This document shows, in pieces, positions 967 through 26,667 of a stretch of DNA of 64,000 bases. Every line of letters starts with the position of its first letter. Within the stretch, counting starts at the first letter, position 1. The DNA is from Catellatospora bangladeshensis (GTDB taxonomy: Bacteria; Actinomycetota; Actinomycetes; Mycobacteriales; Micromonosporaceae), in assembly GCF_016862575.1 (NCBI RefSeq), contig NZ_BONF01000010.1, positions 310,001 through 374,000 of the forward strand. Direction: 5' to 3'. The translations under genes and the position numbers were made by a program. The notes under the pieces are model-generated. The model was given only the letters and a program-made list of their open reading frames with translations. It was not told where the DNA came from and did not search any database.

Positions 967-3900
967 TCAGGGACGGTCGGCGGGCAGGCGCTGCTCGATG
1001 GTCTTGGCCATCGCGGACAGGGTCGGCGCGTCGAAGATCTGGCGCATCGAGAGCCGGACCCCGTAGGCCGCCCGGACTTGGGCGACGAGCTGCACGGCCG
1101 TCAGCGACGTGCCGCCCACGGCGAAGAAGTCGTCGTCAGGCCCGAGGTGCTCGATGCCGAGCAGCGCCGTCCATACGGCCGCCAGCCCTACGGCCGGGCC
1201 CGGCGAGGTTGCCTGCCCGGCGAGCTGATCCGGCGGGGCCTCGTGCCTGGCGACCTGGGCGGCCGCAGCGCCTTCCGCCGAGTTGCCGGTCGCCGCAGCG
1301 GCCGCCACGGGCGGATCGGGGTCGATCCAGTGCCGGCTCCGCTCGTAGGGGTAGCCGGGCAGCGGCACCCGGCGGCCCGTGCCGCCGACGGTGACCGGCA
1401 GGCCCTGCACCCACAGCCGCCCGGCGGCGGTGTAGCAGGTCGTGACGGCGTCGGCGGGTTCACCGGCGGCGGGCAGGCTGTGCAGCGGCGCGGGTGAGCC
1501 CTTGGGCAACTGCATCTGCGCCAGCCCGGCCAGCTGCCGCCCCGGCCCGCACTCCAGGAACTGGGTCGCGCCACCGGCCAGCGCCACCGCGACCGCAGGT
1601 CCGAACAGGACCGGCTCACCCAGCAGCCCGGCCCAGTGAGCCGGATCGGTCGCGTCGGACGGGGTCACCGGCTGCCCGGTGCGGCAGGACAGGTAGGGCT
1701 GCGCCGGGGCGGACGGGTGGGCCGCCGCCACCGCCACCGCCAGCTCGTCCAGCATGGCGGCGGTGACGGCGCCGCGCTCGGGCAGGTCCGCGCGCAGCCG
1801 CCGGGCCTGGATCGGGCGTCCCGTCGCCGGATCGGTGAGCGGCTGCGCGAACACCTCGGCCGGCGCGGTGACGACGCTGCTCGCCGGGCCGTTGACCGCC
1901 ACGACCGCCGCCTCCGGCGGCAGCAGCCCGGCCAGCGTCGCCGCGCTCGCCGACACGGTGAATGCGGGAGTCGTCGGCAGTCTCTCCTGCAGCCGCCCGT
2001 GCAGCTCGACCAGGCGCAGCGCGGCAGGCAGGGTGAACACCCCGGCCAGGGTCGCGGCGGCGTACTCGCCGGTGCCGTGGCCGAGCATGGTGGCCGGGCG
2101 CAGGCCCCACGAGCGCCAGAGCAGCGCCGTGGCGTAGCCGAGCGCGAACGAGCCCGGCAGTGGGTCGGCGAGCAGGTCCGGCACGGTCCGGCCCAGCGCG
2201 GCCGCGCAGCGGTCGACCGCCTCGGCGAACACCGGCTCGGCGGGGTGAAGGCCGGGATCCACGGGTGGGACGGCCTGGTCGCCGAAGAGCAGCACGACCC
2301 GGGGCACGGTGACCGTGGCCGGGGCCGTGAGCAGCCGCTGCGGGGTACGCAGCGCGGTCACCGCGTCTGCCGCGCCGGTCGCGACGACCGCGGCGCGGTG
2401 CGGGTGCTCGGCGCGACCGGCCCGAAGAGTGAACGCGACGTCCGCCAGGTCCGGTGCGCCGGCGGCCGCAAGGTGGTCGGCGAGCCGTGCCACAGCCGCG
2501 TCCCGGGCCGCGGCGGATCGGGCCGAGAGCACCAGCAACTGTGCGCGCGGTGTGCATCCCAGGGGTTGCGGAGGCAACTTCTGGGATGCCTCCCGCGGCA
2601 CGCCTGACATGGCGCCGGGCGGTTGCGCCACGGCGCCGTCCCGGGGCGCGTCGTCGTGCCGGGCGGGTGGCTGTTGGAGGACGACGTGCGCGTTGGTGCC
2701 GCCGATGCCGAACGAGCTGACCGCGGCGCGGCGCGGCGCGTCCCCGGCGTCCCAGGTCGCGAGGGTGGCGTTGACGTAGAACGGGCTCGCCGTGAAGTCG
2801 ATCGCCGGGTTGGGCGCGGTGTAGCCCAGGCTGGCCGGGATCAGGCCGTGTTCCAGGGCGAGCGCGGTCTTGATGAGCCCGACGACGCCCGCGCCCTGGC
2901 TCAGGTGGCCGATGTTCGACTTGACCGAGCCGATGGCGCACCACTGCCGATCAGCGCGACCACGCCCGTACACACTGGTCAGGGCCTCGACCTCGATGGG
3001 GTCGCCGAGCGCGCTGCCGGTGGCCGACGCCTCGACGTAGGTGACCGTACGCGGGTCGACGCCTGCCGTGGCCAGCGCGTTCGCGATCACGGCGGCCTGG
3101 CCCGCGACCCCGGAGGCGGTGAAGCCGACCTTGGCGGCGCCGTCGTTGTTGACCGCGTTGCCGAGCACCACCGCGTGCACGTGATCGCCGTCGGCGAGCG
3201 CGTCGCCGAGCCGTTTGAGCAGCACCACTCCCCCGCCGCTGCCCGCGACGACGCCGGTGGCGGCCGCGTCGAAGGGACGGCAGCGGCCGTCGGCGGAGTC
3301 GGCGGCGCCCTCGCGGTGCAGGTAGCCGTGGTCGGCGGGCAGCTCGATGCTGACGCCCCCGGCCAGCGCCATGTCGCACTCGCCTGCGCGCAGCGCCTCC
3401 GCGGCCGTGTGCACCGCGACCAGCGACGTCGAGCAGGCCGTGTACACCCCGACACTGGGGCCGCGCAGGTTCAGGTGGTACGAGACCAGGGTGGTGAACG
3501 TGTCGGCGTGGTTGCCGTTGCCGATCGTGGTGTGGTCGGTGACCGCCATGATCGCCCGGTTGGCGTGGATGTGCCGCCACCGGTAGTTCTCCATGCCGCG
3601 CCCGCCGTACACGCCGATGTCGCCCGGGTGGCGGGCCGGGTCCCAGCCCGCGTGCTCCAGCGCGGCGTGGCACAGCTCCAGGAACAGCCGGTGCTGCGGA
3701 TCGGCCAGCGCCGCCTCGCGCGGCGTCATGCCGAACAGCCCCGCGTCGAAGTCCTCCAGGCCGTCGAGCAGGTACGCCACCGGCACGTAGTCCGGGTCGT
3801 CGGCCTGCTCCGCCGGGACGCCCGCGCGCAGCAGGCGCTCCCGGCTCAGCTCGGTGCGCGCGTCGCGCCCGGCGACCAGGTTCTCCCAGAACCGGCCGAG

Positions 3901-3975
3901 GTCGGGCGCGCCCGGCACCCGGCAGGCCATTCCGATGATCGCGATCGGCTCGACGCCGTCGTCCGGCTCGTTCAC
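967..3975 (-). CDS. Type I PKS module KS-AT-ACP with degenerate KS and AT active sites
   Basis: About 1002 aa. Domains in order are ketosynthase (about 10-430), linker, acyltransferase (about 500-790), post-AT linker ('RVPLPGYPYERSRHWI') and ACP (about 900-985). KS Cys181 is present ('TACSTSL') and the NIGH His357 is present, but the HGTGT His is Ser317 ('VEASATGSALGDP'). In the AT, GHSxG reads GHGTG with Gly634 in place of the nucleophilic Ser, and the GQGSQ motif has become 'FGDQ'. ACP Ser957 ('GGTSL') is intact. The KS could accept an acyl chain but not condense normally, and the AT should not load an extender. The GTG start overlaps the upstream NRPS stop by 4 nt with GGGGAGGAACT before it, so the two are translationally coupled. 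A longer upstream extension of this frame is spurious. A hairpin sits in the KS-AT linker. Substrate and product are unknown. Confidence 0.92.
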   Translation of the reverse strand: MNEPDDGVEPIAIIGMACRVPGAPDLGRFWENLVAGRDARTELSRERLLRAGVPAEQADDPDYVPVAYLLDGLEDFDAGLFGMTPREAALADPQHRLFLELCHAALEHAGWDPARHPGDIGVYGGRGMENYRWRHIHANRAIMAVTDHTTIGNGNHADTFTTLVSYHLNLRGPSVGVYTACSTSLVAVHTAAEALRAGECDMALAGGVSIELPADHGYLHREGAADSADGRCRPFDAAATGVVAGSGGGVVLLKRLGDALADGDHVHAVVLGNAVNNDGAAKVGFTASGVAGQAAVIANALATAGVDPRTVTYVEASATGSALGDPIEVEALTSVYGRGRADRQWCAIGSVKSNIGHLSQGAGVVGLIKTALALEHGLIPASLGYTAPNPAIDFTASPFYVNATLATWDAGDAPRRAAVSSFGIGGTNAHVVLQQPPARHDDAPRDGAVAQPPGAMSGVPREASQKLPPQPLGCTPRAQLLVLSARSAAARDAAVARLADHLAAAGAPDLADVAFTLRAGRAEHPHRAAVVATGAADAVTALRTPQRLLTAPATVTVPRVVLLFGDQAVPPVDPGLHPAEPVFAEAVDRCAAALGRTVPDLLADPLPGSFALGYATALLWRSWGLRPATMLGHGTGEYAAATLAGVFTLPAALRLVELHGRLQERLPTTPAFTVSASAATLAGLLPPEAAVVAVNGPASSVVTAPAEVFAQPLTDPATGRPIQARRLRADLPERGAVTAAMLDELAVAVAAAHPSAPAQPYLSCRTGQPVTPSDATDPAHWAGLLGEPVLFGPAVAVALAGGATQFLECGPGRQLAGLAQMQLPKGSPAPLHSLPAAGEPADAVTTCYTAAGRLWVQGLPVTVGGTGRRVPLPGYPYERSRHWIDPDPPVAAAAATGNSAEGAAAAQVARHEAPPDQLAGQATSPGPAVGLAAVWTALLGIEHLGPDDDFFAVGGTSLTAVQLVAQVRAAYGVRLSMRQIFDAPTLSAMAKTIEQRLPADRP
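2552..2591. repeat. Hairpin element, family 3, copy 1 (inside the PKS KS-AT linker)
   Basis: GCATCCCAG (2554-2562) pairs with CTGGGATGC (2581-2589). An inner GTTGC-GGAG-GCAAC stem-loop lies at the centre, separated by two G.T-type positions. The core GTTGY-N4-RCMAC and its spacing match the hairpins at 10226-10265 and 44309-44348. It lies in coding sequence for the linker just after the KS domain and keeps the frame open. Confidence 0.6.
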
Positions 3976-7452: not shown

Positions 7453-9759
7453 TCATCGGGCGGTTGCGGGGTCGCGTACGGTCATCCGCAGCTCGCTGAG
7501 GTAGCGCCGGCCCGCGCCGTCGGGCACCCACGCCTGCTCCGGCGCGGGCAGCAGCTCCGAGACGGTCAGCGGCACGTCCGGGCCGCCGTCGCGTGCCGCG
7601 GCGCGCACGAGCGCCACGAACGCGGCCACGTACGCCGGGCCGGTGAAGTCCACATAGCACGGCTTGATCTCCGTGCCCACCTTGACGAACACCCGCTCGG
7701 GCAGGCCCAGCCGCTCCCGCCAGCGGCGGATCGCCAGGTAGCGCTCCGCCTCGCCGGACCGGGGCGCGTCCACGCCGCAGTCGCCGACCGTGGTGCGCCA
7801 CGTCTCCCGCTGCACCACCAGCCTGCCCACGGCGACGCGCGGGGTGTACGGGCGCGCGTCCACCAGCTTGCACGCGTTGACCGACCGCGCCGACAGGAAC
7901 GAGCCGAACAGCTCCACCAGCGGCCACGCGCGCCCGTCCGGGGCCTGCCCGACCAGCTCACCGTCCACGACGGACACGGTCACGGCAGCCGTGGGCAGCA
8001 CCTGCGCGCCGGGCGGCACCGGTGCCGGGGTGTACGCCAGCCGTACGTCGTCCGGCCCGTTGAGGGTGAACGCCATCCGCGCCGTGAACTCGGGGAAGTC
8101 CTGCGGATACAGCGGTACGACCCGGTCGCCCAGGTCCCGGTGCACCGCGGCTCGCAACGCCCCCGGCTCCGGGTGGAACCGGGTGAAGATGCCGTTGTCG
8201 CAGGTGAGCCAGGCCACGTGCAGCTCGCCGAGCACCGCCGTGAACTCCCCCGCCGCGAGCTCCGCCACGCTCCCCGCGCTCAGGTGCAGGTCCGGGCTGT
8301 GCAGCCGGGCCGCCCGCCATCCCGGCGCCGCCGCGGGGAACTCCCGCGCGACGGCATCGGTGACCTCGGCCGGGTCCAGGCCGATCCGCCCGCCGTCGCC
8401 ACCGGCCCGGCCGTCCAGCCGGAGCACGCGGGACCAGCGTGCGGAGAAGTCGTCGATCACGTCGGCGACCGGCCCCGCGCCGAAGATCACGCCGAGCGCG
8501 GCGTCCCAGATGTCGCCGAGCGGCACCGCGCCGCCGCCTGCTTCGGCGTGCAGCTCCCGCAGTGCGGACTCGAACGCGGCGGCCATCGCGGCGGTCAGCC
8601 AGCGTGCGGCCGTGAGCAGCGGGACCAGGGTCTCGGCGAGCAGGTCGAGCACCGGCCCGCCGAGCGTCACGTCGAGATCCCGGACGGTCTCCTCGTAGGC
8701 CAGGCCGCGCCCGACGTACGTGGCTCCGGGCCGGTGCACCGCCTCACCGCCGGTGATCGCGGCGAACTCGTCGCGCAGATGGAGCGTCGCAGCGCGGACC
8801 GCGTCGGCGTCCCCCGCCGCGCGGGCCAGCCCGTCGCGGGCCGCGAGCAGCCGGGACAACCCGGATAGCGCCTCGTCCCGCAGCTCCGGCTCGCCCAGGG
8901 CGGCCAGGCTGTGCAGCAGCACGTCCTCGGCGGCGATGGTCAGCGGCAGGTCGATTCCCCGCCGGACCAGACCCTGCTCGGCCAGCTGCGCCAACGCCAG
9001 CAACGCGTCGGCCTCCTTGCGGAACCCGGCACGCGGGTCGGCCAGCACCGCGGCAGCCACCTCCCGTGCCGTCCGCCCGTCGCACGCGCCGAGCAGCGCC
9101 GCCGTCGCCGGAGCGAGCCGTTGCGGGGACAGGCCGGGCTGGAGCAGGTCGTCGCCGTCCAGCGCCAGGTCGGGGCGCCGGGACACCGGCAGCCACGGGT
9201 GGTAGCGAGTGTCTTCGGCGAGCCGTTCGGCGTACGCGGCGAGCGCCCGCCATTCCAGGTCCACCTCCCGCGCCCGGGTAAGCGCGGGTCCGGCGTGCAC
9301 CGTGGCGGCCGGGCCGCCGTCGGACAGCGCCGCCCAGCAGACGGGGCCGAAGAAGCCGATGGTGTCGTTCTTGGCGCAGTAGCGCTGCCAGTAGCGGGTG
9401 ATCACGATCTCGCGCTGCCGGTGCCGCGAGTTGCGGGCCGTGTCCGGGCCGGTGCGGGCGAGCCCGTCCAGGGCCTCCACCGAGTGCAGGCTCTGCCAGG
9501 TCACCGCCTCGCGGAACAGCGGATCGGCGGCGATCGCGGCGAGCTGCCCGCTCGACCGGGCCGTGGCGGCCGTGAACGCCGCCTCGAACCCGGCGCGGTC
9601 CAGGTCACCGGCGAGGAACGCGTCGGCATGCTTGGCGCAGTCGGGCGCGGCCAGCAGGTCCAGGCCGGACGCGGCGAACCCGGGGGCGCGCAGCACCGCG
9701 GATCGCCATACGTGCCAGCCGGTCTCGCCCAGCGGCACCAGCGCCTCCGGCTCAGCCAC
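7453..9759 (-). CDS. Stand-alone LanB-like protein (lantibiotic dehydratase N-terminal domain)
   Basis: 768 aa. The middle and end resemble the glutamylation (tRNA-dependent) domain of class I lanthipeptide dehydratases: 'RYWQRYCAKNDTIGFFGP' is close to the LanB R-x-R-x(n)-TPFGLF region, and 'LPERVFVKVGTEIKPCYVDF' matches the conserved FVKxPxExKPxYVDF stretch. LanB enzymes transfer Glu from Glu-tRNA to Ser/Thr and eliminate it to give dehydro-amino acids. Related PEARL enzymes add other amino acids from aminoacyl-tRNA to peptide C termini. There is no LanC, precursor peptide or separate SpaB_C elimination gene nearby. Instead the gene sits inside an NRPS-PKS operon, overlapping the KS gene by 8 nt and followed 13 nt later by the A-T-C-T NRPS. 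A role in dehydrating or aminoacylating a carrier-bound intermediate is inference. Confidence 0.82.
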   Translation of the reverse strand: MAEPEALVPLGETGWHVWRSAVLRAPGFAASGLDLLAAPDCAKHADAFLAGDLDRAGFEAAFTAATARSSGQLAAIAADPLFREAVTWQSLHSVEALDGLARTGPDTARNSRHRQREIVITRYWQRYCAKNDTIGFFGPVCWAALSDGGPAATVHAGPALTRAREVDLEWRALAAYAERLAEDTRYHPWLPVSRRPDLALDGDDLLQPGLSPQRLAPATAALLGACDGRTAREVAAAVLADPRAGFRKEADALLALAQLAEQGLVRRGIDLPLTIAAEDVLLHSLAALGEPELRDEALSGLSRLLAARDGLARAAGDADAVRAATLHLRDEFAAITGGEAVHRPGATYVGRGLAYEETVRDLDVTLGGPVLDLLAETLVPLLTAARWLTAAMAAAFESALRELHAEAGGGAVPLGDIWDAALGVIFGAGPVADVIDDFSARWSRVLRLDGRAGGDGGRIGLDPAEVTDAVAREFPAAAPGWRAARLHSPDLHLSAGSVAELAAGEFTAVLGELHVAWLTCDNGIFTRFHPEPGALRAAVHRDLGDRVVPLYPQDFPEFTARMAFTLNGPDDVRLAYTPAPVPPGAQVLPTAAVTVSVVDGELVGQAPDGRAWPLVELFGSFLSARSVNACKLVDARPYTPRVAVGRLVVQRETWRTTVGDCGVDAPRSGEAERYLAIRRWRERLGLPERVFVKVGTEIKPCYVDFTGPAYVAAFVALVRAAARDGGPDVPLTVSELLPAPEQAWVPDGAGRRYLSELRMTVRDPATAR

Positions 9760-11569
9760 GGCGACCTGCCACCGGCTCGATCCAGTGCCGCCGCCGCTGG
9801 AACGGATACCCCGGCAGCGGCACCTTTCGCCCGCTGCCGGCGGGCACGTCCCCGCCGCTCAGCCAGGTCTCCCGCAGCCGCCGGACCTCCTCGGGCGCAC
9901 CGTCCGGGACCGTACCCGGCCCGCCCGCCGCGACCTCGGCCAGCCCTGCTCGGGCCTCCGTCTCGTCCCGGCACAGCACGGCGGCGCGGTGCGGCAGGCG
10001 GCGGCGTCCGACGGCCAGGGTGTACGCCACGTCGGCCAGGCCGCGCGGCGCGGCGTCCCCGCCGTCGGTCCCGGTGCCCGGTCCCGCGCTCGGCGTGCGC
10101 TGCGAGCCGGTGGCCAGCGTCTCGGCCAGCCGCCCCGCGAGCTGCGGCAACGCCTGGGAATCGCCCGCGCTCAGCGGCAGCAGCAGCCAGCGCTCGCGGT
10201 CCCCGGCGGTGGGTTGCGCCGTAGTCCACGACTCAGGAGTTGTGCTCACCACTCCTGAGTCGTGGACCGCCGAAGACGGTGCCTGCTGGACGAGCACGTG
10301 GGCGTTCGTGCCGCCGAGGCCGAACGAGCTGACCCCGGCCCGGCGCGGCCCGACCCACGATCGCGCGGCGGTCTCGACGGTGAAGGGGGTCGCCGCCAGG
10401 TCGACGTCGGGGTGCGGCTGTTTGAAGTGGAGGGTCGGCGGGATGACCCCGTCCCGCACGGCCAGGGTCGCCTTGATCAGGCCGATCACCCCGGCGGCGG
10501 CGTCGAGGTTGCCGAGGCCGCCCTTCGCCGAGCCGAGCACGCAGTAGCCCGACCGGCTCGTGGACGCACGATACGCCCTGGTCAGCGCCTCTATCTCGAT
10601 CGCATCGCCGAGCGCCGTGCCGCTGCCGTGGCCCTCCACGAAGCCCACGTCGGCGGCGTCCCAGCCCGCCGCGGCCAGGGCCTCGGCCACCACGGCCGCC
10701 TGCCCCGCCACACCGGGCACGGTGAACCCGCCCCGGGCGGCCCCGTCGTTGCCGACCGCCCAGCCCGCGAGCACGCCGTACACGTGGTCGCCGTCGGCGA
10801 TCGCGTCGGCCAGTCGTTTGAGCACCACCGCGCCGCCGCCGTTGCCGAACACCTGGCCGGTCGCGTCGGCGTCGTACGGGCGGCACACGCCGTCGGACGA
10901 CCAGGTGCCGCCGGGCCGGTGCCGGTAGCCGCGCTGCACGGTCGAGGCGACGGCAGCGCCGCCCGCGATCGCCACGTCACAGCGGTAGTCGAGCAGGCTC
11001 TGCGCCGCCTGGCACACCGCCACCAGCGACGACGAGCACGCCGTCTGCACCGCGACGGCCGGGCCGGTCAGGCCCAGCGCGTACGCGACGCGGGTGGGCA
11101 GGTAGTCGCAGCTGCCACCGGCAAGCGCGTCGTCCCAGTCGTCGGGCAGCGGCCCGGCCGCTCCCACGGCGGGGTTGCCGAGCAGGTGGTGGCGCAGGTA
11201 GCGGTCGGCGCCGCAGCCCGCGAAGACGCCGATCTGCGCCTGCGCGCGGGACGGGTCGAGCGCCGCGTCCTCCAGGGCCCACCAGGCCAGCTCCAGGAAG
11301 ATCCGGTGCTGCGGGTCGAGCAGCGCCGCCTCGGCGCCGATGTACCCGAACAGGTTGGCGTCGAAGTCCTCCAGCCCGTCCAGGTGACCGAACGCGGGCA
11401 CGAACGTGCCGTCGTCCGTGGGCAGACCGGCCTCGGCCAGCTCGTCCGGGGTGAACCGGCGGATCGCGTCCACCCCGTCGCACAGGTTGCGCCACAGCGT
11501 CGCGGTGTCGGATGCGCCGGGCACCCGGCAGGCCATGCCGACCACGGCGATCAGGTCGTCGTCGCTCAC
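9752..11569 (-). CDS. AT-less ketosynthase protein with altered catalytic triad
   Basis: About 605 aa: KS domain (about 5-430), a KS-to-AT linker region, then directly a post-AT linker motif ('RKVPLPGYPFQRRRHWIEP') and the end. No acyltransferase and no ACP are present. Cys178 ('TACSSSL') and His314 ('GHGSGTALGD') are kept, but the second catalytic His, normally in SNIGH, is Asn354 ('KGGLGNLDAAAG'). That His normally supports decarboxylative condensation, so the domain may transfer or gate chains rather than extend them. GTG at 11569 overlaps the A-T gene stop (GTGA) and has GGAGG 10 nt upstream; the stop overlaps the LanB-like start by 8 nt. A 17-bp perfect palindrome lies in the linker coding sequence at 10224-10267. 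A frame extending upstream of the GTG belongs to the neighbour. Confidence 0.9.
   Translation of the reverse strand: MSDDDLIAVVGMACRVPGASDTATLWRNLCDGVDAIRRFTPDELAEAGLPTDDGTFVPAFGHLDGLEDFDANLFGYIGAEAALLDPQHRIFLELAWWALEDAALDPSRAQAQIGVFAGCGADRYLRHHLLGNPAVGAAGPLPDDWDDALAGGSCDYLPTRVAYALGLTGPAVAVQTACSSSLVAVCQAAQSLLDYRCDVAIAGGAAVASTVQRGYRHRPGGTWSSDGVCRPYDADATGQVFGNGGGAVVLKRLADAIADGDHVYGVLAGWAVGNDGAARGGFTVPGVAGQAAVVAEALAAAGWDAADVGFVEGHGSGTALGDAIEIEALTRAYRASTSRSGYCVLGSAKGGLGNLDAAAGVIGLIKATLAVRDGVIPPTLHFKQPHPDVDLAATPFTVETAARSWVGPRRAGVSSFGLGGTNAHVLVQQAPSSAVHDSGVVSTTPESWTTAQPTAGDRERWLLLPLSAGDSQALPQLAGRLAETLATGSQRTPSAGPGTGTDGGDAAPRGLADVAYTLAVGRRRLPHRAAVLCRDETEARAGLAEVAAGGPGTVPDGAPEEVRRLRETWLSGGDVPAGSGRKVPLPGYPFQRRRHWIEPVAGRRG
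10224..10267. repeat. Hairpin element, family 3, copy 2 (inside the KS linker)
   Basis: A perfect 17-bp inverted repeat (10224-10240 with 10251-10267) has a 10-nt centre, GTCCACGACTCAGGAGT and its complement. Its 40-nt core (10226-10265) aligns base for base in length with the hairpin at 44309-44348. Stem differences are compensated on the opposite arm. On the minus strand it encodes the stretch 'VHDSGVVSTTPESW' in the linker after the KS domain. Confidence 0.75.
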
Positions 11570-14914: not shown

Positions 14915-15988
14915 TCAGACGGCGGCCGGGCTCGTGGCCCGCAGCCGCCGGCGCAGGGCGCGCAGGCGGTCGTGCACCTCGTCGTATGCGGCGGCGTCCC
15001 AGCCCTGCGCGAACTCCGGCAGGTGCGGCGCCAGGACCGCGGCGGCCTGCGGCAGGTGCCGCACCCGCCCGTCGGCGATCTCGATGCCGTCCCGGCGCCC
15101 GGCGTGGTGGTTCCACGCGACCGCCTCCGGCAGGGTCAGGCCCGGCAGGTCCGGGGCGAGCGCCCCGCCGGACACGCGCACCGGGTAGCCGCCGGGCAGT
15201 CCCAGCGGCCCCGGCACGCTGGTGTGGAACTCCGCCCCGGACAGCAGGTCGGTCAGCAGCCGCGCGGCGGCGTGCCCGGCCAGCGCGTTCAGGTCGGCGC
15301 GCGGCAGGGCGCGGTAGGGCGCCAGCAGCTCGGTCACGCCGGGCACCGGCACGCCGTCGCACCAGGCCAGCACCTCGCCGTCCGGTCCGTCCGGGGCGTC
15401 GAGCTGGGCGTGGTGCCCGAGCACGGCCAGCCGCCGCTGGTCGGGCAGCCCGAGCGCCGCCTGCAGGCACGCGGCCAGGGTGGCCACGTTGCCGATCCCG
15501 CACAGGACCGGCAGGCCCAGCGCGGCCAGCAGCGGGTTCACCGCGTCCGGGAAGCAGCCGTTGACCAGCCTGGTCTGCGGGCACTCCGCGGCGACCGCCC
15601 GCGCCAGCCGCACCGCGAGCACCGCCTGCAACGGCAGCGTCACCCCGAACCCGGCCTGCCCGAGCAGGTGCGTCCAGGCCGAGGGCTGGAGCGCCTTCTC
15701 GTACGGCGAGTGCGCGGACGCGCAGCACACCAGCAGGTCCGGTTTCAGCCGGGCGGGGGCGGCGAGGTCGTCGCCGAGCGCCTGCCCGGTGAAAGTGACG
15801 GTGGTGCCGGCCACGGCGGCCCGCACCCGGCAGTCGCGGACGATGGCGTCCACGGCCGCGGCGTTGCGGGCCGACACGGTGACCTGGAGCGGGGCCGCGC
15901 CGGGCGGGGTAAGCACCGCCAGCGAGCGGCAGATCGCGGCGGCCAGGCTGCCGCTGCCGACGACGGCGACGTGGTGCGGGCTGGTCAT
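14915..15988 (-). CDS. NAD(P)-binding Rossmann protein, dehydrogenase-like
   Basis: 357 aa. An N-terminal dinucleotide-binding fold is clear ('VAVVGSGSLAAAICRSLAVL'). The next part recalls the lactate/malate dehydrogenase layout: a strand ending 'LLVCCASAHSP', the segment 'AAECPQTRLVNGCFPDAVNP' (cf. the NPVD loop) and 'GIGN'. It is an oxidoreductase-like protein, possibly acting on an amino or hydroxy acid made for the NRPS; the substrate is unknown. It starts 3 nt after the panD stop and precedes the PLP-enzyme gene, so it is in the same operon. A dehydrogenase next to a fold-type-II PLP enzyme recalls the SbnA/SbnB-style pairs that make 2,3-diaminopropionate, but neither sequence shows direct kinship to those. 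Confidence 0.6.
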   Translation of the reverse strand: MTSPHHVAVVGSGSLAAAICRSLAVLTPPGAAPLQVTVSARNAAAVDAIVRDCRVRAAVAGTTVTFTGQALGDDLAAPARLKPDLLVCCASAHSPYEKALQPSAWTHLLGQAGFGVTLPLQAVLAVRLARAVAAECPQTRLVNGCFPDAVNPLLAALGLPVLCGIGNVATLAACLQAALGLPDQRRLAVLGHHAQLDAPDGPDGEVLAWCDGVPVPGVTELLAPYRALPRADLNALAGHAAARLLTDLLSGAEFHTSVPGPLGLPGGYPVRVSGGALAPDLPGLTLPEAVAWNHHAGRRDGIEIADGRVRHLPQAAAVLAPHLPEFAQGWDAAAYDEVHDRLRALRRRLRATSPAAV

Positions 15989-15991
15989 GGT

Positions 15992-16363
15992 TCAGACGGC
16001 GGGATCGCTGTGCACCGCGGCGATGCGGTTGGCCTCGTCGACGAAGACCACCTTCGGCTTGCAGTCGCGGGCCTCGTCGTCGGACATGACGGCGTACGCC
16101 GCGATGATGACCAGGTCACCGGGGTTGACCAGGTGTGCGGCGGCGCCGTTGATGCACACCACGCCGCTGCCGCGCTCGCCCTCGATGACGTAGGTCTCCA
16201 GGCGCGCGCCGTTGGTGACGTCGAGGACGTGGATCAGCTCGCCGGGCAGCAGGTCGGCGGCGTCCATCAGGTCGGGGTCCAGGGTCAGCGAGCCCACGTA
16301 GTGCAGCTCGGCCTGGGTGACGGTGGCACGGTGAACCTTGGACTTGAGCATTGTGCGGAACAT
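15992..16363 (-). CDS. panD: Aspartate 1-decarboxylase (PanD)
   Basis: 123 aa, the normal family length. PanD is a pyruvoyl enzyme that decarboxylates L-aspartate to beta-alanine. The self-cleavage site Gly24-Ser25 is in place ('[10 protein letters not shown]'), as are '[12 protein letters not shown]', '[17 protein letters not shown]' and Lys9 near the N terminus ('MLKSKVHRA'). The ATG at 16363 is chosen because it gives the conserved N terminus and has GGAGG 11 nt upstream. It is the first gene of the eight-gene minus-strand operon, so it probably provides beta-alanine to the NRPS rather than for pantothenate. Whether another panD copy serves coenzyme A synthesis cannot be seen here. Confidence 0.95.
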
Positions 16364-19518: not shown

Positions 19519-22335
19519 TTAGCGGGTGGCCACGGTGGCGAGGGCGGTGGCCGTGTCGGGGTGGCGGCGGAGGAGGTCGTGGACGGGGCCGGTGCCCGGC
19601 TCGGGGTCGGGCTGCTGCCAGGGGCCGGGGCAGCCGAGCAGCGCGGCCAGCGCGTCGGTCGGCTCCGGGTGGGCCGTGAGCAGCGCCGTCACCGGACCCG
19701 CCGCGGCCCGCGGCGCACCGGTGGCGGCCGGTTCGGCCGGCTGCGCCGACCAGGGCGGGGTCCACGAGTCCAGGGCGGCGAGGCCCGCCGGGAAGACCCG
19801 GCCCGCCTCGCGGACCAGCAGGCCGACGTGGTCGCCGCCCTCCTTGCGCAGCGTGGTGATCAGCGTCGGCAGCCACGGCAGCAGCACCGGATCGGGCAGC
19901 TTCGCGAACGCCTCCGAGATCGCCTCGACGACGAACCCGGCCAGCGCCGGGACCGGTTCGAGCGCCTGCACGAAACCGCTCAGGTACTGCGGGTAGGCGG
20001 GCAGGACCAGCGGGTTGGCCAGCAGCTCCGCGCAGCGTTCGCGCAGCTCGGCACGCGACATCCGGCCGAGCTGGTGCTGGGCCGCCCACAGCAGCGCGGT
20101 CTTGGCGGGCGTGGTCGGGTGCGACTGCGCCACCGCCAGCTCCAGCTGCGTACGGTCGCAGCCCAGCGACAGCGCCAGGCTCTCCATGCTGAACAGGAAG
20201 CCCAGCATCGCGGCCACCTGCCGGGTGCCCGTCTCCTCGTCGACGAACGCGTTCGGCAGCAGGGTGCAGTAATGGGCGTACCCGGCCTTGACGAACGACT
20301 CCAGCCAGCCGGGGAGCACCGGCTCGGTGGCCCGGTAGTGCGCGAGCAGGCGCCGGGCCCGCCGCAGCACCTCGGGCGCGTCGTCGACGGTGCGCTCGGC
20401 GGCCAGCAGGTCCACCGCGCGGGCCCCGAGTTCGTCGGCGAAGCGGCGGCTGCGCAGGTAGAGCGTGGCGTCCTCGACCGCTCGCAGCGCGACCGAGGCG
20501 GTGGCCTGCGGCCCCCACACCGAGCGGCGCAGCCGCTGTTCGAGGACCTGCTCGACGGTGATGCCCTCGTACCCCAGCTCGATCAGCTCCCGCTGGTGGG
20601 TGCCGAGCGCCAGGTCCCAGGACTCCTGGATGGCCGTCTCGCCGAGCCGCCGCTCGCCCATGATCGGCCGGACCGCGGCCTGCGGCATCAGGTAGCGCAG
20701 CATCCACAGCACGTCCGAGCAGCGGCCGAGCTCCGGCCGGGCGGCGATGTCGAGCAGCGCCCGCTGCACGCCGCGCTGCTCCAGCTTCAGCCCCAGCGGG
20801 GTGAGCCGGTCGTGCACGTCACGGGCCAGCGGCGGCAGCGAGTCGTAGCCGACCTGCCCGATCCGGTCGCCGCCGAGCATGATCTCGCAGAGCCGCCGCA
20901 CGTCGCGCCGGCCGGGCACGGACTCCTTCTCGATGCAGGTGACCGCCGCGTCCTGGAAGTCGTACGGCGTCGGCCGGGCCCGGTTGCGCATCCCCGCGAG
21001 CAGGATCGACGTCTCGAACACGGCGATGGCGTCGGCGGTGCTGGCCAGGTAGCCGTTGCGCCGGGCCAGCCGCACGATCTCCACCGACCAGCCGAGCAGC
21101 TCGTCCTCGTCGAGCGTGTCCAGCACCGGCGGCCGGGCCAGGAACCCGGACAGCCGGTCGGCGACCTGCCGCGACACCGGCGACACGACCGCCGCCGCCT
21201 TGGCCTTCTTCTTGGGCGCGGCGCCCGAGCCCTGCTGGCCCTCCAGCCGGTAGGGCGTGACGCCGGTGCGGGTCAGCGACTTCCCGAACACCGCCGCCGC
21301 GATCGACACCGAGCCCGAGGCCAGCCCGAACTGCGCCTCGATCGCCGAGTGGCTGGACGGGATGAGCCCGTAGTGCCACTTCGTCGCCGTACGCGGGCTG
21401 ATCTCGTACGTGTCCGCGCCGTCGAGCCCGAACTCGTCCACCCGGCTCGCCGCGTGGAACGCGCCGCACACGTAGAGGCAGTCCGCCGCGTCGGCCCCGG
21501 TCGCGGCGAGGTGCTGCCGCATCCGGGTCCACATGTAGCGCTCGCGCTCCTCGTCGGAGGCGACCCGGTCGTGCGCGCCCGGCGCCAGCCGCCGGAACAG
21601 GCTGCCGATCAGGACCATGACCTGCCGGTACGTGTCGTAGTCGGCGTCGCCGAGCGGCTGCTCGACGTACTGGTCCCACCACTCCGACCAGTGCCGGACC
21701 TTGCCGTGGTGCAGCAGGTGCTGCTCCAGCTCGGCGAAGCGCGGCCGCAGGTCGCCCATCTCGACGCCGACCGCGTCGCCGTGCAGGTCGGCGTCCTCCG
21801 GCGGGGCCTCGGGCAGTTCCTCGCCCTCCGGCGCGACGGCCGTCTCAGCCGTCTTGTCCTTGCGCGGCTGCCACTGGAACACGTGGTCGGTCGACCGGTC
21901 CACCAGCACCAGCTCGACCCCGGGCGTGTCCAGCGCGTACGCGATGGCCTGGTATTCGGCCGACGCCTCGGTGATCGGGGCGACCACCGACAGCGGCGCC
22001 CAGTCCTGCGGGAAGCCGTCCAGCTCGGACGCGAACGCCTGCACCGCCACCGGCAGCCGGCAGTTGCGCAGCTCGGTGAGCAGCGGGAGCATGTCCTCAC
22101 ACAGCTCCATGTAGATCACCTTGGGCTGCTTCTCGCGCAGCCGCCGGGCCATCGCCAGCGCGGACGCGGGCGAGTGGTGGCACACCGGGAAGATCTCCAT
22201 GCGCTCGCGCAGCGCCCGGTCCACGTCGTCCACGATGCCGGACAGGATCCCGGCCAGCGCGTCCGGACCGTCGGCCAGCGCCGCGGCGGCGTCGAGCAGC
22301 TGCCCGCGCAGCGCGTCGAAGGTGGGAGTGGTCAC
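19519..22335 (-). CDS. DUF5682-type protein of a MoxR-VWA system
   Basis: About 938 aa, soluble, large. The N-terminal half has 'PVCHHSPASALAMARRL', 'VIYMELCEDMLPLL' and 'LYVCGAFHAAS'. This spaced HH, E and GxxH pattern recalls the EreA/ChaN/TraB type fold (inference). An Ala/Lys-rich linker ('APKKKAKAAA') at about 390 leads to a long helical C-terminal half. I recognise the whole as DUF5682, which in actinomycetes accompanies a MoxR ATPase and a VWA protein. The biochemical activity is unknown; it may be the effector or substrate of the ATPase. GTG at 22335 overlaps the MoxR stop by 4 nt. It is the last gene of the five-gene operon and is followed by the palindromic element at 19402. Confidence 0.8.
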   Translation of the reverse strand: MTTPTFDALRGQLLDAAAALADGPDALAGILSGIVDDVDRALRERMEIFPVCHHSPASALAMARRLREKQPKVIYMELCEDMLPLLTELRNCRLPVAVQAFASELDGFPQDWAPLSVVAPITEASAEYQAIAYALDTPGVELVLVDRSTDHVFQWQPRKDKTAETAVAPEGEELPEAPPEDADLHGDAVGVEMGDLRPRFAELEQHLLHHGKVRHWSEWWDQYVEQPLGDADYDTYRQVMVLIGSLFRRLAPGAHDRVASDEERERYMWTRMRQHLAATGADAADCLYVCGAFHAASRVDEFGLDGADTYEISPRTATKWHYGLIPSSHSAIEAQFGLASGSVSIAAAVFGKSLTRTGVTPYRLEGQQGSGAAPKKKAKAAAVVSPVSRQVADRLSGFLARPPVLDTLDEDELLGWSVEIVRLARRNGYLASTADAIAVFETSILLAGMRNRARPTPYDFQDAAVTCIEKESVPGRRDVRRLCEIMLGGDRIGQVGYDSLPPLARDVHDRLTPLGLKLEQRGVQRALLDIAARPELGRCSDVLWMLRYLMPQAAVRPIMGERRLGETAIQESWDLALGTHQRELIELGYEGITVEQVLEQRLRRSVWGPQATASVALRAVEDATLYLRSRRFADELGARAVDLLAAERTVDDAPEVLRRARRLLAHYRATEPVLPGWLESFVKAGYAHYCTLLPNAFVDEETGTRQVAAMLGFLFSMESLALSLGCDRTQLELAVAQSHPTTPAKTALLWAAQHQLGRMSRAELRERCAELLANPLVLPAYPQYLSGFVQALEPVPALAGFVVEAISEAFAKLPDPVLLPWLPTLITTLRKEGGDHVGLLVREAGRVFPAGLAALDSWTPPWSAQPAEPAATGAPRAAAGPVTALLTAHPEPTDALAALLGCPGPWQQPDPEPGTGPVHDLLRRHPDTATALATVATR

Positions 22336-23444
22336 GACAGGGTCTTGATCGCGTCGCGGCCGCCCTCGAGGAACTCCGGCCACAGCCCGCCCTCGGCCTT
22401 GCTGCGCGGCTCGACCACGCCGTGCCAGTACTTGTTGAGGATGGCCAGGTCCTCCGGTGCGCGGCGGGCCAGCGAGCCGACGAGCGAACCGGCCAGGGTC
22501 TGCGCACGCAGGGCCCGGTCGCCGAAGAAGTTGCTGTGCAGGATCGCGTCCTCCAGCACGCCGATCTGCTCGGCGGTGGACAGCGCGGACTCCAGCTTCT
22601 CGTCGTCGCTTCCCGCCGACGCGGCCGCCGCACGCAGGTCGGCGAAGCTCTGCAGCAGGATGTCCAGCAGCGTCGGCGGCACCTCCAGCTCGATCTGGTG
22701 GCGGCGCAGCAGCTCGCCGGTGCGGAAGCGGACGATCTCCGCCTCGCTCTTCTTGTTGGTCACCACGGGGATGCGCACGAAGTTGAACCGCCGCTTGAGC
22801 GCCGAGGACAGATCGTTGACGCCCCGGTCCCGGCTGTTCGCGGTGGCGATGATCGAGAAACCAGGCTTGGCGAAGACGATGTTGTCGTCGTCCAGCTCCG
22901 GGATGGACACGTACTTCTCGGACAGGATCGAGATCAGCGCGTCCTGCACATCGCTGGTGGAGCGGGTCAGCTCCTCGAAGCGGCCGATGACGCCCCGCTC
23001 CATCGCCGTCATGATCGGCGACGGGATCATCGAGGCCCGGGACTGGCCGTTGGCGATGACCGCCGACACGTTCCACGAGTACTTGATGTGGTCCTCGGTG
23101 GTGCCGGCGGTGCCCTGCACCACCAGCGTCGAGTTGCGGCAGATCGCTGCGGACAGCAGCTCGGCCAGCCAGCTCTTGCCGGTGCCGGGGTCGCCGATGA
23201 GCAGCAGACCCCGGTCGGAGGCCAGGGTCACGATGGCCCGCTCCACGAAACTGCGGTCGCCGAACCACTTCTGGCTGATCTCACGGTCCAGCCCGTCGGC
23301 GCGCTCGGAGCCGAGCACGAACAGGCGCACCATCTTCGGGCTGAGCCGCCACGAGAACGGCTTCGGGCCGTCGTCGACCGACTCCAGCCAGTCCAGCTCC
23401 TCGGCGTACTTCACTTCGGCGGGGGCGCGCAGCATGTCAGACAT
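22332..23444 (-). CDS. MoxR-type AAA+ ATPase
   Basis: 370 aa. It has Walker A 'GDPGTGKSWLAELL', a helix-2-insert region 'IKYSWNVSAVIANGQSRASM' typical of MoxR/ChlI clade ATPases, a Walker B-like 'GVIGRFEELTR', sensor 1 'FSIIATANSRDRG' and an arginine in 'LSSALKRRFNF'. MoxR ATPases act with VWA proteins as chaperones that remodel target complexes, often inserting metals or activating effectors. The upstream gene encodes the VWA partner (12 nt gap) and the downstream DUF5682 gene overlaps by 4 nt. ATG at 23444 is preceded by GGAGATCGACCCT. Confidence 0.93.
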   Translation of the reverse strand: MSDMLRAPAEVKYAEELDWLESVDDGPKPFSWRLSPKMVRLFVLGSERADGLDREISQKWFGDRSFVERAIVTLASDRGLLLIGDPGTGKSWLAELLSAAICRNSTLVVQGTAGTTEDHIKYSWNVSAVIANGQSRASMIPSPIMTAMERGVIGRFEELTRSTSDVQDALISILSEKYVSIPELDDDNIVFAKPGFSIIATANSRDRGVNDLSSALKRRFNFVRIPVVTNKKSEAEIVRFRTGELLRRHQIELEVPPTLLDILLQSFADLRAAAASAGSDDEKLESALSTAEQIGVLEDAILHSNFFGDRALRAQTLAGSLVGSLARRAPEDLAILNKYWHGVVEPRSKAEGGLWPEFLEGGRDAIKTLS

Positions 23445-23456
23445 AGGGTCGATCTC

Positions 23457-24791
23457 CTAGGCGAGGAAGTTCTTGAGTTCGAACACGAGCTTGCGAATGT
23501 GGCCCGAGATCACGGGCGTGCCGAGGTCCTTGAACCGCTGGCGGAACCAGGGGTTGACGATGCCCTGGCCGGAACTGGTCACCGAGCCGACCGGGATGAA
23601 GCGCACCCCGGACCGGTGCACCGCGACGATGCTGTCGTACAGCGGCTGGGAGCGGTCGAACTCGTAGAAGTCCGAGATCCATACCATGGCGGTGTTCTTC
23701 GGCTCGGCGATCTTCGGGCGGGCCATGGCCATCGCCACCGGGCCGTCGTTGCCGCCGCCGAGCTTGGTGCGCAGCAGCACCTCGAACGGGTCGTGCACCC
23801 ACGGCGTCAGGTCGATCGCCTTGGTGTCGTACGCGATCAGGTGCACGTCGACCTTCGGCAGGCCCGCGAAGATCGAGGCCAGGATCGTGCAGTTGACCAT
23901 CGAGTCGAGCATGGAACCGGACTGGTCCACCACCACGATCAGCCGCGACGGCGTCGTCCTGCTGGCGGTGTGCCGGTAGAAGAGCCGGTCGACGTAGAGC
24001 TTCTGGTCGTCGGGGCTCCAGTTGGTCAGGTTCTTCCAGATGGTGCGGTCCAGGTCCAGGTTCCGGAACACCCGCTTCGGCGGCACGCTGCGGTCGATCG
24101 TGCCCGCCGCCGTGCGCTCCACCTGGGTACGCAGCACCGCCGCGACCTCTTCGACGAAGCGCCGGATCAGCGCCTTGGCGTTGGCCAGCGCGACGCCCGA
24201 CAGGTTCGACTTGTCCCGCAGCAGCTGCTCGATCAGCGACATGCTCGGCGTGAGCTGCGCGGCCAGCTTCGGGTCGGCCAGCACCTCGCGCAGCTGCATC
24301 CGGCTGATCAGGTCGCCTTCCAGCTCGCCGAGCGTGCCGCCCATCCCGCCGCCCTCGCCGCCCGGCCCGCCGCCGCCCTGGCGGCGCAGGCTGCCCGGCT
24401 CCTGCCCGAGCGCCCGCTCCAGCCAGCCCGCGTCGGACTGCCACTTGGCCAGCTGCGTCGCCGACACCGATCCCGACCCGGTGTCGAACACGTTCAGCAG
24501 CACCTTCGCCGCCAGCGCCGCCCGCCGCACCTCCGCCGCCGAGTCACGCCCGGCGTCCGCGTCGGTCTCCGGGGTCATCAGGCCGTCGAAGTCCTCGGCC
24601 AGGTCCGGGAAGCGCTGGACGATGTTGTCCACCGAGACCGACGGGTCGAGCAGCGCGGCGGGCAGGCCGAGGTCCTCGACGACGGCGAGGCTCGCCGATT
24701 CGAGGGCGGCCTGCTCCTCGCGGCTGAACAGCCGGGCGATGAGCCGCCAGTAGAGCACCTGGCGGCGGTTGAAGTCCGCGTCCACGGTCAT
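23457..24791 (-). CDS. VWA-domain protein (CoxE/MoxR partner type)
   Basis: About 444 aa. The N-terminal half is helical with a Gly-rich segment (about 130-160). A von Willebrand A domain follows with a complete MIDAS: 'VVVDQSGSMLDS' (Asp289), a downstream Thr in 'YDTKA' or 'NTAMVW', and 'ISDFYEF'. Such proteins bind a divalent cation and partner with MoxR ATPases. The gene overlaps its upstream neighbour (ATGA) and precedes the MoxR gene by 12 nt. No signal peptide or TM segment is present, so it acts in the cytoplasm. Confidence 0.9.
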   Translation of the reverse strand: MTVDADFNRRQVLYWRLIARLFSREEQAALESASLAVVEDLGLPAALLDPSVSVDNIVQRFPDLAEDFDGLMTPETDADAGRDSAAEVRRAALAAKVLLNVFDTGSGSVSATQLAKWQSDAGWLERALGQEPGSLRRQGGGGPGGEGGGMGGTLGELEGDLISRMQLREVLADPKLAAQLTPSMSLIEQLLRDKSNLSGVALANAKALIRRFVEEVAAVLRTQVERTAAGTIDRSVPPKRVFRNLDLDRTIWKNLTNWSPDDQKLYVDRLFYRHTASRTTPSRLIVVVDQSGSMLDSMVNCTILASIFAGLPKVDVHLIAYDTKAIDLTPWVHDPFEVLLRTKLGGGNDGPVAMAMARPKIAEPKNTAMVWISDFYEFDRSQPLYDSIVAVHRSGVRFIPVGSVTSSGQGIVNPWFRQRFKDLGTPVISGHIRKLVFELKNFLA

Positions 24792-26161
24792 TTCCGCAGC
24801 AGCCTTCCCGCGCGTTCGCGCAGCACCTTCACCGCGTCGGCGGCGGCCGCCTCGGCCTTGGCCCCGGCGGCGTCGCTCGCCCCGCCCGCCCACGCGCCCG
24901 CGTGCACGGCGACGGTCTTGCGCTTCACCGGCGTCTCGACCGCCAGCGGCTGGAGCAGCCAGCGGCCGTCCCAGCGCAGCAGCCCGACGCACGCCGTCGA
25001 CGCGGCGACCAGGGCGGGGGTGAGGGGACCGGCGCTGTGCAGTCCGTCCACCTCGATGGTGAGGCCGGGCAGGGTGAACGTGACGACGTCGTCCTGCGCA
25101 GCGGCGGCGTACCCCTCGACGAGCACCGGCTCGGCCAGCCGCACCGGGTGCCGCTCCAGCGGCGGGACCGGCGCGGCCGTCGCCCCCGCGAGCAGCACCC
25201 GCGCCGTGGCGAACGACTCGGCGGGCTCCCCCGCCTTGGCACACGCGTCGGACCAGATCAGATCCCCGCCCGCGGTGACCGGCATGTCCGTCAGCTCCAT
25301 CGCCCGCTGCTCGGAGTACGCCCCCAGCAGGGCGCTGTGCACGCGCAGCAGCTGCCACACGCCCGGCCCGACCAGCGTGTCCACCTTCGGCGCGGACACG
25401 CTCGCCCGCACCAGGCGCGGCCCGTCCGCCGTCTCCAGCACCGCGTGGACCTGCGCCTGCACCGCCGTCGGGTGCTCGTGCAGGTCGACGCCGAGCGGCA
25501 GCAGCCGCCCGGACACCGTGCCCACCGGCACCGGCGCGAGCGCGCCCGGCTGCGCCAGCAGCACCGCCCGCGCCCACAGGTCGGCCCAGCGCCGCACCGG
25601 CACCCGGGGCATCGTCGCCCCGGGGCACCAGGCGCGCAGCTCGCCGGCGAACCCGTCGAGCAGCACGCCCAGCCGCCGCAGCCGGGGCTCGGCCAGCAGC
25701 GCCGCGACCGCTTGGTCGGCGTGCGACACCAGGTCGTGGTCGATGCCGCGCCAGCCCGCGATGGCCAGGTCGGACAGCCACGACCGGGCCGCCGCCAGCA
25801 GGTTCTCCCCCGCGACGTCGCCCGCCGGGGTCACCGGCCACGGCTCGCGGGAACGTCCCGCGGCCTCGTCGAGCCGGGCCAGCAGCGCGTCGTGCGCCGC
25901 GCCGAGCAGCGCGGACCGCGCCGCGACCAGCGCCGCCACGTGCTCCTCGGCGATCGAACCGGCGATCGTCTTCTCCACCGCCTCGGCCACCCGGCCCGCC
26001 AGCGGCGTCACCGACACCGCGCCGCCCAGCGCCTGCAGCGCCGCCACCTGCTCCGTGCCCGGCCGCAGCAGGCCCTGCACCAGCACCTCGTCAAACCCGG
26101 CCACCACGTCGTACGCCTCGGCGACGCCGTCGACCGGCGCGGCCAGCATGTCGAACCGCAT
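24788..26161 (-). CDS. Unrecognised protein of the MoxR-VWA operon
   Basis: About 457 aa, soluble, Ala/Leu-rich, no motif I recognise. The first part (1-200) looks helical; the second part has beta-rich stretches ('DVVTFTLPGLTIEVDG', 'GPRLVRASVSAPKV') suggesting a separate C-terminal domain. It ends in a basic helix ('VLRERAGRLLRK'). The ATG at 26161 shares a base with the stop of the SWIM-like gene (TGATG), and its stop overlaps the VWA start. Invariant coupling with the VWA and MoxR genes suggests a dedicated subunit. Confidence 0.75.
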   Translation of the reverse strand: MRFDMLAAPVDGVAEAYDVVAGFDEVLVQGLLRPGTEQVAALQALGGAVSVTPLAGRVAEAVEKTIAGSIAEEHVAALVAARSALLGAAHDALLARLDEAAGRSREPWPVTPAGDVAGENLLAAARSWLSDLAIAGWRGIDHDLVSHADQAVAALLAEPRLRRLGVLLDGFAGELRAWCPGATMPRVPVRRWADLWARAVLLAQPGALAPVPVGTVSGRLLPLGVDLHEHPTAVQAQVHAVLETADGPRLVRASVSAPKVDTLVGPGVWQLLRVHSALLGAYSEQRAMELTDMPVTAGGDLIWSDACAKAGEPAESFATARVLLAGATAAPVPPLERHPVRLAEPVLVEGYAAAAQDDVVTFTLPGLTIEVDGLHSAGPLTPALVAASTACVGLLRWDGRWLLQPLAVETPVKRKTVAVHAGAWAGGASDAAGAKAEAAAADAVKVLRERAGRLLRK

Positions 26162-26667
26162 CAGCGCACCGCCCCGCCCGCCGGGAACCACTGCAGCTCC
26201 GCCAGCGGCTCGGTCGACGCCGGCAGCTCCAGGTAGGCCAGGTGGCGCAGGAAGCGGCTGAACACCGGCGCGCCCGCCGACGGCTGGTGCCACGCGTTCA
26301 CCGCGCTGAGCACCTCACCGCCCGTGGTGGCGCTGTCGGCCACGTCGGCGCGCAGGTAGCGGGCCACCCGGGCGATGCCGTACTGCAGCACCGCCTCGTC
26401 GGCCAGCGCCCGCAGGTGGTTGCAGCCGCCGGAGCGGATGCCGCCGCAGGGGCGGTTGTTGTTGGTGCTGCAGTGGAACGAGTAGTCCTTGGCGGTCAGT
26501 GACGACACGTACACGCGCTCGATGTCCGAGCCGCTCGACACGACACCCTGCAACCGGCCGTCGGCCAGCTCGACGAACGGCACCTTCGCCAGCTTGCGCG
26601 GCCGGGCCGGCGACAGCACCCGCGCCGTGCTGCGCTGCTCCCACGGCGGCGTCTGGGCAGCATTCAC
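26161..26667 (-). CDS. SWIM-like zinc-binding protein
   Basis: 168 aa. A cysteine/histidine cluster 'HCSTNNNRPCGGIRSGGCNH' (C-x7-C-x6-C-x-H) at about 67-86 follows two short strands ('VVSSGSDIERVYVSSL'). This is the layout of SWIM zinc fingers, which bind nucleic acid or protein. It heads the five-gene MoxR-VWA-DUF5682 operon and may recruit the complex to its target (inference). The ATG at 26667 follows GGGAGGTGTACGCGG. The 110-nt gap upstream presumably carries the operon promoter, though I could not place it. Confidence 0.75.
   Translation of the reverse strand: MNAAQTPPWEQRSTARVLSPARPRKLAKVPFVELADGRLQGVVSSGSDIERVYVSSLTAKDYSFHCSTNNNRPCGGIRSGGCNHLRALADEAVLQYGIARVARYLRADVADSATTGGEVLSAVNAWHQPSAGAPVFSRFLRHLAYLELPASTEPLAELQWFPAGGAVR

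Follow-up and report, generated by a model that had tools for sequence, protein, structure and literature searches.

A PEARL-type LanB-like ligase in an NRPS cluster of Catellatospora bangladeshensis and its probable role in aminoacyl-tRNA-dependent peptide extension

Introduction

The 64,000-nt stretch of high-GC actinomycete DNA from Catellatospora bangladeshensis analyzed here (the window; G000:C10:310001-374000) carries a LanB-like gene whose product is, by sequence, a peptide aminoacyl-tRNA ligase (PEARL). This ligase probably extends a peptide made by nonribosomal peptide synthetase (NRPS) proteins by one amino acid derived from aminoacyl-tRNA. Using ATP, it would phosphorylate the free carboxylate of a small NRPS-made peptide; the alpha-amine of an aminoacyl-tRNA would attack the acyl phosphate, and the peptide would leave the enzyme one amino acid longer. 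We infer that the reaction is amide formation and that the NRPS product, rather than a carrier or precursor protein, serves as acceptor. The cluster is real and functionally plausible, and its originality lies more in the genes surrounding the ligase than in the ligase itself.

Known PEARLs use free carboxylates, which are coupled to aminoacyl-tRNA after activation by ATP. They act on ribosomal peptides or, in the case of SnaE, after a chain reversal whose ureido motif is absent from the cluster described here. SnaE, characterized in 2024, adds Thr and comes from the cluster for threopeptin in Stackebrandtia nassauensis; in the same paper Yu and van der Donk reported roughly two thousand NRPS/PKS clusters that contain genes of this type (PMC11212132). 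The reading of the present ligase as an enzyme that adds an amino acid to an NRPS product is supported by SnaE, a Thr-adding enzyme in such a setting (PMC11212132). An earlier note on this DNA had called the chemistry not standard for NRPS-PKS lines; its kind has already been published (PMC11212132), although the present cluster differs from the SnaE type. Titles and abstract openings in the open-licence literature yielded, among the matches listed, no further reports of PEARLs in NRPS clusters beyond PMC11212132 and its preprint.

Results

The ligase gene and its operon

The earlier note had described the product as a full LanB N-domain protein and proposed a profile search. In a Pfam scan the ligase matched PF04738 (Lant_dehydr_N) with 109.8 bits against a cut-off of 28 (E 1.4e-31), which upholds the family; ‘full’ overstated the case, as the profile was covered only at positions 1-428 and 574-646 of 649 and the match is therefore partial. 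No second Pfam family was matched at E 0.001, and hence no PF14028 elimination domain. The best PDB match of the ligase profile was TbtB (6ec7; E 4.4e-12), and the single sequence gave no PDB match. The ligase is under purifying selection (dN/dS of 0.16 and 0.28 against two congeners). In a family search, 7 of 11 genomes of the genus, its own among them, gave a strong match, and identities were 69-71% to three named Catellatospora species and 95% to another same-genus genome. Counting weak matches, some of them to canonical LanBs, E <= 0.001 was reached in 89 of the 200 family genomes and in 74 of the 397 genomes of the order.

Ten genes are transcribed in the order P450, AMP-binding ligase, PanD, 357-aa protein, DUF6002, A-T, ketosynthase (KS), LanB-like ligase, A-T-C-T and KS-AT-T (Table 1), with a stand-alone C domain gene and an MFS transporter gene on the opposite strand, convergent to the operon. 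The nine junctions from P450 through KS-AT-T measure -11 to +123 nt. The proposed translational coupling of the ligase to KS and NRPS genes was borne out: the end of the upstream KS gene overlaps the ligase start by 8 nt, and the A-T-C-T gene begins 13 nt past the ligase stop. The statement that no precursor or cyclase lies nearby also held, with the left flank included. Neither LanC nor another RiPP gene was found among 25 Pfam-scanned genes, a subset of those in a span that starts about 10.6 kb beyond the left end of the window and runs to 32.7 kb; the scan covered called genes, not small ORFs that overlap them or run antisense to them. No gap within the operon exceeds 123 nt, which speaks against a RiPP precursor between its genes. 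Further along, window positions 19519-26619 hold a probable MoxR-type AAA/VWA_CoxE operon with three proteins lacking a Pfam match, which seems unrelated.

Table 1. Genes of the cluster, in window coordinates
Feature	Position	Strand	Basis and remarks
Stand-alone C domain, 440 aa	1..902, start 420 nt left of window (L088:17581-18903)	plus	PF00668 E 8.7e-76; IHHILADG
KS-AT-T, 1002 aa, degenerate	967..3975	minus	Pfam; KS EASATGS, AT GHGTGE
A-T-C-T NRPS, 1155 aa	3972..7439	minus	Pfam; C motif AHHAVFDG; one A for two T
PEARL-type LanB-like ligase, 768 aa	7453..9759	minus	GTG start; PF04738 and PEARL residues
Stand-alone KS, 605 aa	9752..11569	minus	Cys present; Asn in place of the second catalytic His (GLGNLDAA)
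A-T protein, 648 aa	11566..13512	minus	Pfam; read-off code DMTHLGGFAK, matched to no amino acid
DUF6002, 456 aa	13509..14879	minus	PF19465 E 1.2e-192; predicted fold-type-II PLP enzyme
357-aa protein, Rossmann-like N-terminal motif	14915..15988	minus	No Pfam match; weak OCD/SbnB likeness
Aspartate 1-decarboxylase (PanD) paralog	15992..16363	minus	PF02261 E 2.3e-52
AMP-binding acyl ligase, 524 aa	16487..18061	minus	PF00501/PF13193
Cytochrome P450, 401 aa	18051..19256	minus	PF00067

The ligase carries the PEARL residue pattern

Residues equivalent to those of PEARLs were placed in the ligase at R24, Y123, R126, D490, E512, H514, R651, F691, K699, E756 and R758, by motif and spacing from published residues rather than by alignment with a characterized PEARL sequence. 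In BhaBC-Trp the residues given in PMC11962472 and PMC12945691 for ATP/Mg and the carboxylate are D558, E575, H577, R715, F755, K763, E813 and R815; the papers on PEARLs also name residues for the tRNA CCA end. The ligase reproduces the spacings E575-x-H577, R715-40-F755-8-K763 and E813-x-R815; the exception is that D558 and E575 are 17 apart, whereas the D490/E512 pair is separated by 22.

The pattern was followed through 124 LanB-like rows, all chosen for their similarity to the query and 121 of them distinct (the window occurs twice and two loci are repeated). D490, H514, R651 and R758 were conserved in all 124, E756 in 123, E512 in 122 (two Asp) and Y123 in 122; F691 was present in 108 (16 Tyr), K699 in 94 (30 Arg) and R24 in 93 (30 gaps). 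The four full-length canonical LanBs of the genome, which have the elimination domain in the same frame, share R24, Y123, R126 and E756, and D490, E512, H514, R651 and R758 were found in none of them.

These comparisons set the ligase beside two known groups. With NisB, MibB and TbtB it shares PF04738 and the tRNA-end residues; it differs in lacking an elimination domain and in bearing PEARL-specific residues that were absent from the four canonical LanBs tested. With the RiPP PEARLs TglB, AmmB and BhaBC it shares the residues that bind ATP, Mg and the CCA end of the tRNA (PMC11962472), but those enzymes act on ribosomal scaffold peptides, and no such peptide was found at the window locus. A class I lantibiotic dehydratase was considered and rejected: the protein has no elimination domain, no PF14028 match on the contig lies closer than about 90 kb, and neither a precursor nor LanC was found among the 25 genes scanned. 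Elsewhere in the genome (L142; G000:C14:156320-159267), a diverged PF04738 match lies beside PF14028 in another frame, as in split LanB systems.

Chain reversal is disfavored by the C domain

Among the closest described systems is that of SnaE, with which the cluster was compared by its published description; SnaE itself was not found in the order-wide search or in 12 neighborhoods, nor was EHHxxHDG found in those neighborhoods. Both systems combine a stand-alone PEARL-like protein, an A-T-C-type NRPS and KS-AT-T, with no precursor peptide. The window cluster differs in having no ureido C motif and no thioesterase found, in an A-T-C-T in place of A-T-C-A-T, in an AT without Ser, and in the additional A-T and KS proteins and DUF6002, Rossmann, PanD, AMP-binding ligase and P450 genes.

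In a SnaE-type chain reversal the C domain would couple two amino acids head to head, leaving an exposed carboxylate for the ligase to extend. The kit resembles that of sna (A-T-C-(A)-T, KS-AT-T, PEARL; PMC11212132), and in the LanB tree the 36-row clade of the window is sister (support 82) to a clade containing L038, a locus with a ureido-type C motif. However, the A-T-C-T protein has AHHAVFDG in place of the ureido motif EHHxxHDG; ureido-type motifs are rare among the loci gathered (2 of 71 HHxxxDG motifs in called genes of the first loci and L088, and 0 of 31 in later loci); and in the C-domain tree this cluster family falls into a single 24-row clade (support 100), separate from the two ureido-type domains. 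The C motif and the C-domain tree therefore disfavor chain reversal, which we consider unlikely for this cluster. The rationale for SnaE is that chain reversal leaves a carboxylate beyond the reach of thioester chemistry, to be extended by the PEARL, and so the usual chemical reason for a PEARL seems to be missing here.

Ligase fusions and the source of the carboxylate

The ligase family is tied to the assembly line by two kinds of fusion: a thioesterase (TE) precedes the ligase in 17 distinct loci, and C-A-T-LanB fusions occur in 8. Within 60 kb at L140, the only NRPS/PKS genes seen encode TE-PEARL, A-T-C-A-T and KS-AT-KR-DH-T. Megaproteins of the C-A-T-PEARL type, with C-A or C-A-T proteins nearby, were seen at L048, L051, L055, L059, L069, L084, L137 and L139, and L048 additionally carries an FAD enzyme and DUF6875. 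A different pairing is known from livipeptin, in which an aminoacyl-tRNA-dependent enzyme works with a C-minus NRPS, as does the ligase in the reading preferred here, except that the livipeptin enzyme is called an L/F transferase and not LanB-like (PMC10548850).

In relatives the fused thioesterase would provide the free carboxylate. No thioesterase was found among the scanned genes of this cluster, and because the window clade sits among TE fusions in the ligase tree (it adjoins the TE-fused L012 with support 94, with further TE fusions around), the thioesterase was probably lost in this clade. The carboxylate must then arise in another way. One guess is that the stand-alone C domain would release the chain with a free amino acid as acceptor, for instance beta-alanine supplied by PanD; another is that a spare carboxylate would be carried by an amino acid made by the DUF6002/Rossmann pair.

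Degenerate ketosynthases and probable loading of a carrier in trans

The description of the operon as NRPS-PKS was right as to the NRPS genes; its PKS half is in doubt, as neither KS keeps both catalytic His residues and the sole AT lacks its Ser. Relatives of KS-AT-T have EAHGTGT and GHSxGE at the altered KS and AT motifs, and the forms EASATGS and GHGxGE were present in 7 of 7 compared genomes of the genus. The KS-AT of Rhizocola (L011) likewise lacks the AT Ser and the first of the KS His residues; the remaining tabulated KS-AT proteins have both KS His residues and, where it was read, the AT Ser. This shared loss, together with a dN/dS of 0.28-0.36, favors a changed role for KS-AT-T over decay. 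Constraint looked looser for the lone KS (0.46 and 0.32) and the Rossmann gene (0.46).

Among the free-standing KS rows of the group, the second His is Asn in 21 of 21 and the Cys is present in all 20 that reach the site (L129 is cut before the Cys; L141 repeats L025). We take the retained Cys and lost NIGHL His of the KS at 9752-11569 to mean a non-elongating ketosynthase. A normal elongating KS is disfavored by the His-to-Asn change. The residues suggest that the stand-alone KS may be an acyl-transfer enzyme; the fused A-T-KS proteins, which belong to the same clade as the free KS (support 94) and retain the His in 11 of 11, argue against a simple rule.

A candidate role is offered by the A-T-C-T protein, whose second carrier has no A domain of its own. 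The earlier note had proposed to look for the same neighborhood in other actinomycetes; A-T-C-T and a LanB-like gene were found together in 34 loci. A free KS or A-T-KS was present in 30 of these 34 and in 0 of 9 loci whose module 2 has an A domain, counts that are not independent, as they share ancestry through one KS clade and near-copies among Micromonospora loci, and flanks are limited. The A-T-C-T loci with no free KS in view are L024, L029 and L042, together with L131, which is cut by the region end; at L024 none was found on the other side to the contig end or 20 kb upstream. Nor was a free KS found 20 kb further out on both sides of L133, L136 and L140 or on one side of L135. The counts leave out L063, L128, the truncated KS-AT of L013 and KS fragments too short for the length limit. 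The locus L026, an 11-kb contig with an A domain in module 2, comes from the same genome as L013 (A-T-C-T, free KS) and may be part of one cluster with it. In the A-domain tree, the A-T protein's domain has as its sister (support 88) a group that includes module-2 A domains. These observations suggest that the separate A-T protein and the His-to-Asn KS may load the A-T-C-T carrier in trans, probably moving an unusual amino acid onto its second carrier. Among the papers listed in a literature search, none dealt with aminoacyl shuttling by a KS, judged by title and abstract opening.

The second T domain without an A domain might instead indicate that the ligase aminoacylates a carrier or carrier-bound intermediate directly, by loading or amine capping, rather than a free acid, and C-A-T-LanB fusions do place the enzyme next to a T domain. 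However, its ATP-site residues are conserved, which simple aminoacyl transfer should not need, and the A-T and KS proteins account better for the missing A domain, given the distribution above among related loci with limited flanks. Direct aminoacylation of a carrier is accordingly quite improbable.

A predicted amino-acid supply

An AlphaFold2 model of DUF6002 (pLDDT 81.4, pTM 0.84; five models spanning 81.4 to 60.2) was compared using Foldseek, and the best matches were threonine synthases (E 1.6e-11). The best 50 of 947 matches were all fold-type-II PLP enzymes judged by name, CapA2 being named only as a PLP complex, with TM scores on the DUF6002 query of 0.40-0.52. On this model, DUF6002 is predicted to be a threonine-synthase-like fold-type-II PLP enzyme. 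A candidate PLP-binding lysine is K91, which is invariant in 8 of 8 aligned DUF6002 proteins; the TTK motif was seen by eye in L126 and L127 and was absent from the distant L128. A PDB sequence search with DUF6002 and the Rossmann protein returned nothing up to E 1. With hhalign, DUF6002 aligned to PALP with P 0.0025 and a probability of 12% using the better ORF set (P 0.09 with the poorer set). The 357-aa protein aligned to PF02423 members with P 0.0013 and a probability of 18%, and to three other sets with P 0.16-0.41, which relates it weakly to the OCD/SbnB family.

Diaminopropionate destined for a siderophore is produced by SbnA (fold II) together with SbnB (OCD family). By analogy, it is a fair guess that the DUF6002/Rossmann pair would yield a diaminopropionate-like product. 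PanD is the second of two copies in the genome, which suggests dedicated beta-alanine. DUF6002 was found in 4 of 396 phylum genomes, the present one counted. Among 107 tallied PEARL loci, a PF00291 relative was present in 16 (one a fragment) and a PF02423 relative in 8, with both in L064 and L072.

Other loci deserve description in their own right. In L050 (4747-12292) and the majority of the 16 loci that carry a PALP relative, from Streptomyces and relatives, the gene order is PEARL, A domain, PALP (PF00291), carrier protein, PEARL; in Amycolatopsis L064 and L072 the cassette is replaced by PEARL, PALP, PEARL, OCD. The PALP/PEARL cassette looks like a conserved unexplained pathway. In acidobacterial loci (L041:983-15409, L042, L053, L056), NRPS or PKS genes are accompanied by a PEARL and an OCD-family gene, with TauD in addition at L041 and L042 and a MacB/FtsX protein at L041. 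At L127 (9173-18572) a PF04738 protein that has most of the PEARL residues is accompanied by a DUF6002-TauD fusion, a Rossmann-like protein and a split ThDP enzyme (PF02776/PF02775). No NRPS domain was detected there, and the locus may encode a PEARL-containing pathway of the phosphonate or sulfonate type. The DUF6002 genes at L126 (9470-11867) and L128 (9327-12085) have no LanB-like gene labelled within 20 kb and adjoin other unassigned genes.

Dehydration and RiPP-type activity

Of the two activities named in the earlier note, Ser dehydration or amino acid addition by a probable aminoacyl-tRNA-dependent enzyme, the residue pattern and the missing elimination domain support the second. A thiotemplated intermediate, as proposed in the note, is a possible substrate, although known PEARLs act on free carboxylates and relatives have the ligase fused to a thioesterase. 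Glutamyl-tRNA-driven dehydration of a carrier-bound Ser or Thr is very improbable: R24, Y123 and R126 are indeed common to canonical LanBs, but PF14028 was found neither in the protein nor nearby, and the five residues specific to PEARLs leave Ser dehydration unsupported. It is just as hard to credit a RiPP-type pearlin enzyme acting on a scaffold peptide encoded elsewhere, for which a weak PqqD-like match within the ligase profile (E 0.26) and the pairing at L127 might speak, against the translational coupling to NRPS genes, the repeated TE or C-A-T fusions and the tight spacing of the operon.

Discussion

Extension of an NRPS-made peptide by a PEARL is the reading preferred here for the ligase. 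A more far-reaching reading of the whole cluster can be offered only tentatively, and it is rather doubtful. The operon would be an NRPS-PKS lookalike that forms no polyketide bond, with a KS devoid of its decarboxylation histidine as aminoacyl shuttle to the carrier that lacks an A domain, a dead KS-AT lending only its carrier, release by the stand-alone C domain, extension of the freed acid by the PEARL with a tRNA-derived amino acid and without chain reversal, and a DUF6002/Rossmann pair analogous to SbnA/SbnB making the unusual amino acid that is shuttled.

The implications extend to the wider family. The scarcity of ureido motifs implies that many PEARL-NRPS clusters need an explanation other than chain reversal, and the TE-ligase fusions suggest a testable route, that of hydrolytic release followed by tRNA-dependent extension. 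For DUF6002, a family whose name marks its function as unknown, a fold and an enzyme class are now predicted. If the KS does shuttle amino acids between carriers, ketosynthases would have a role beyond polyketide elongation.
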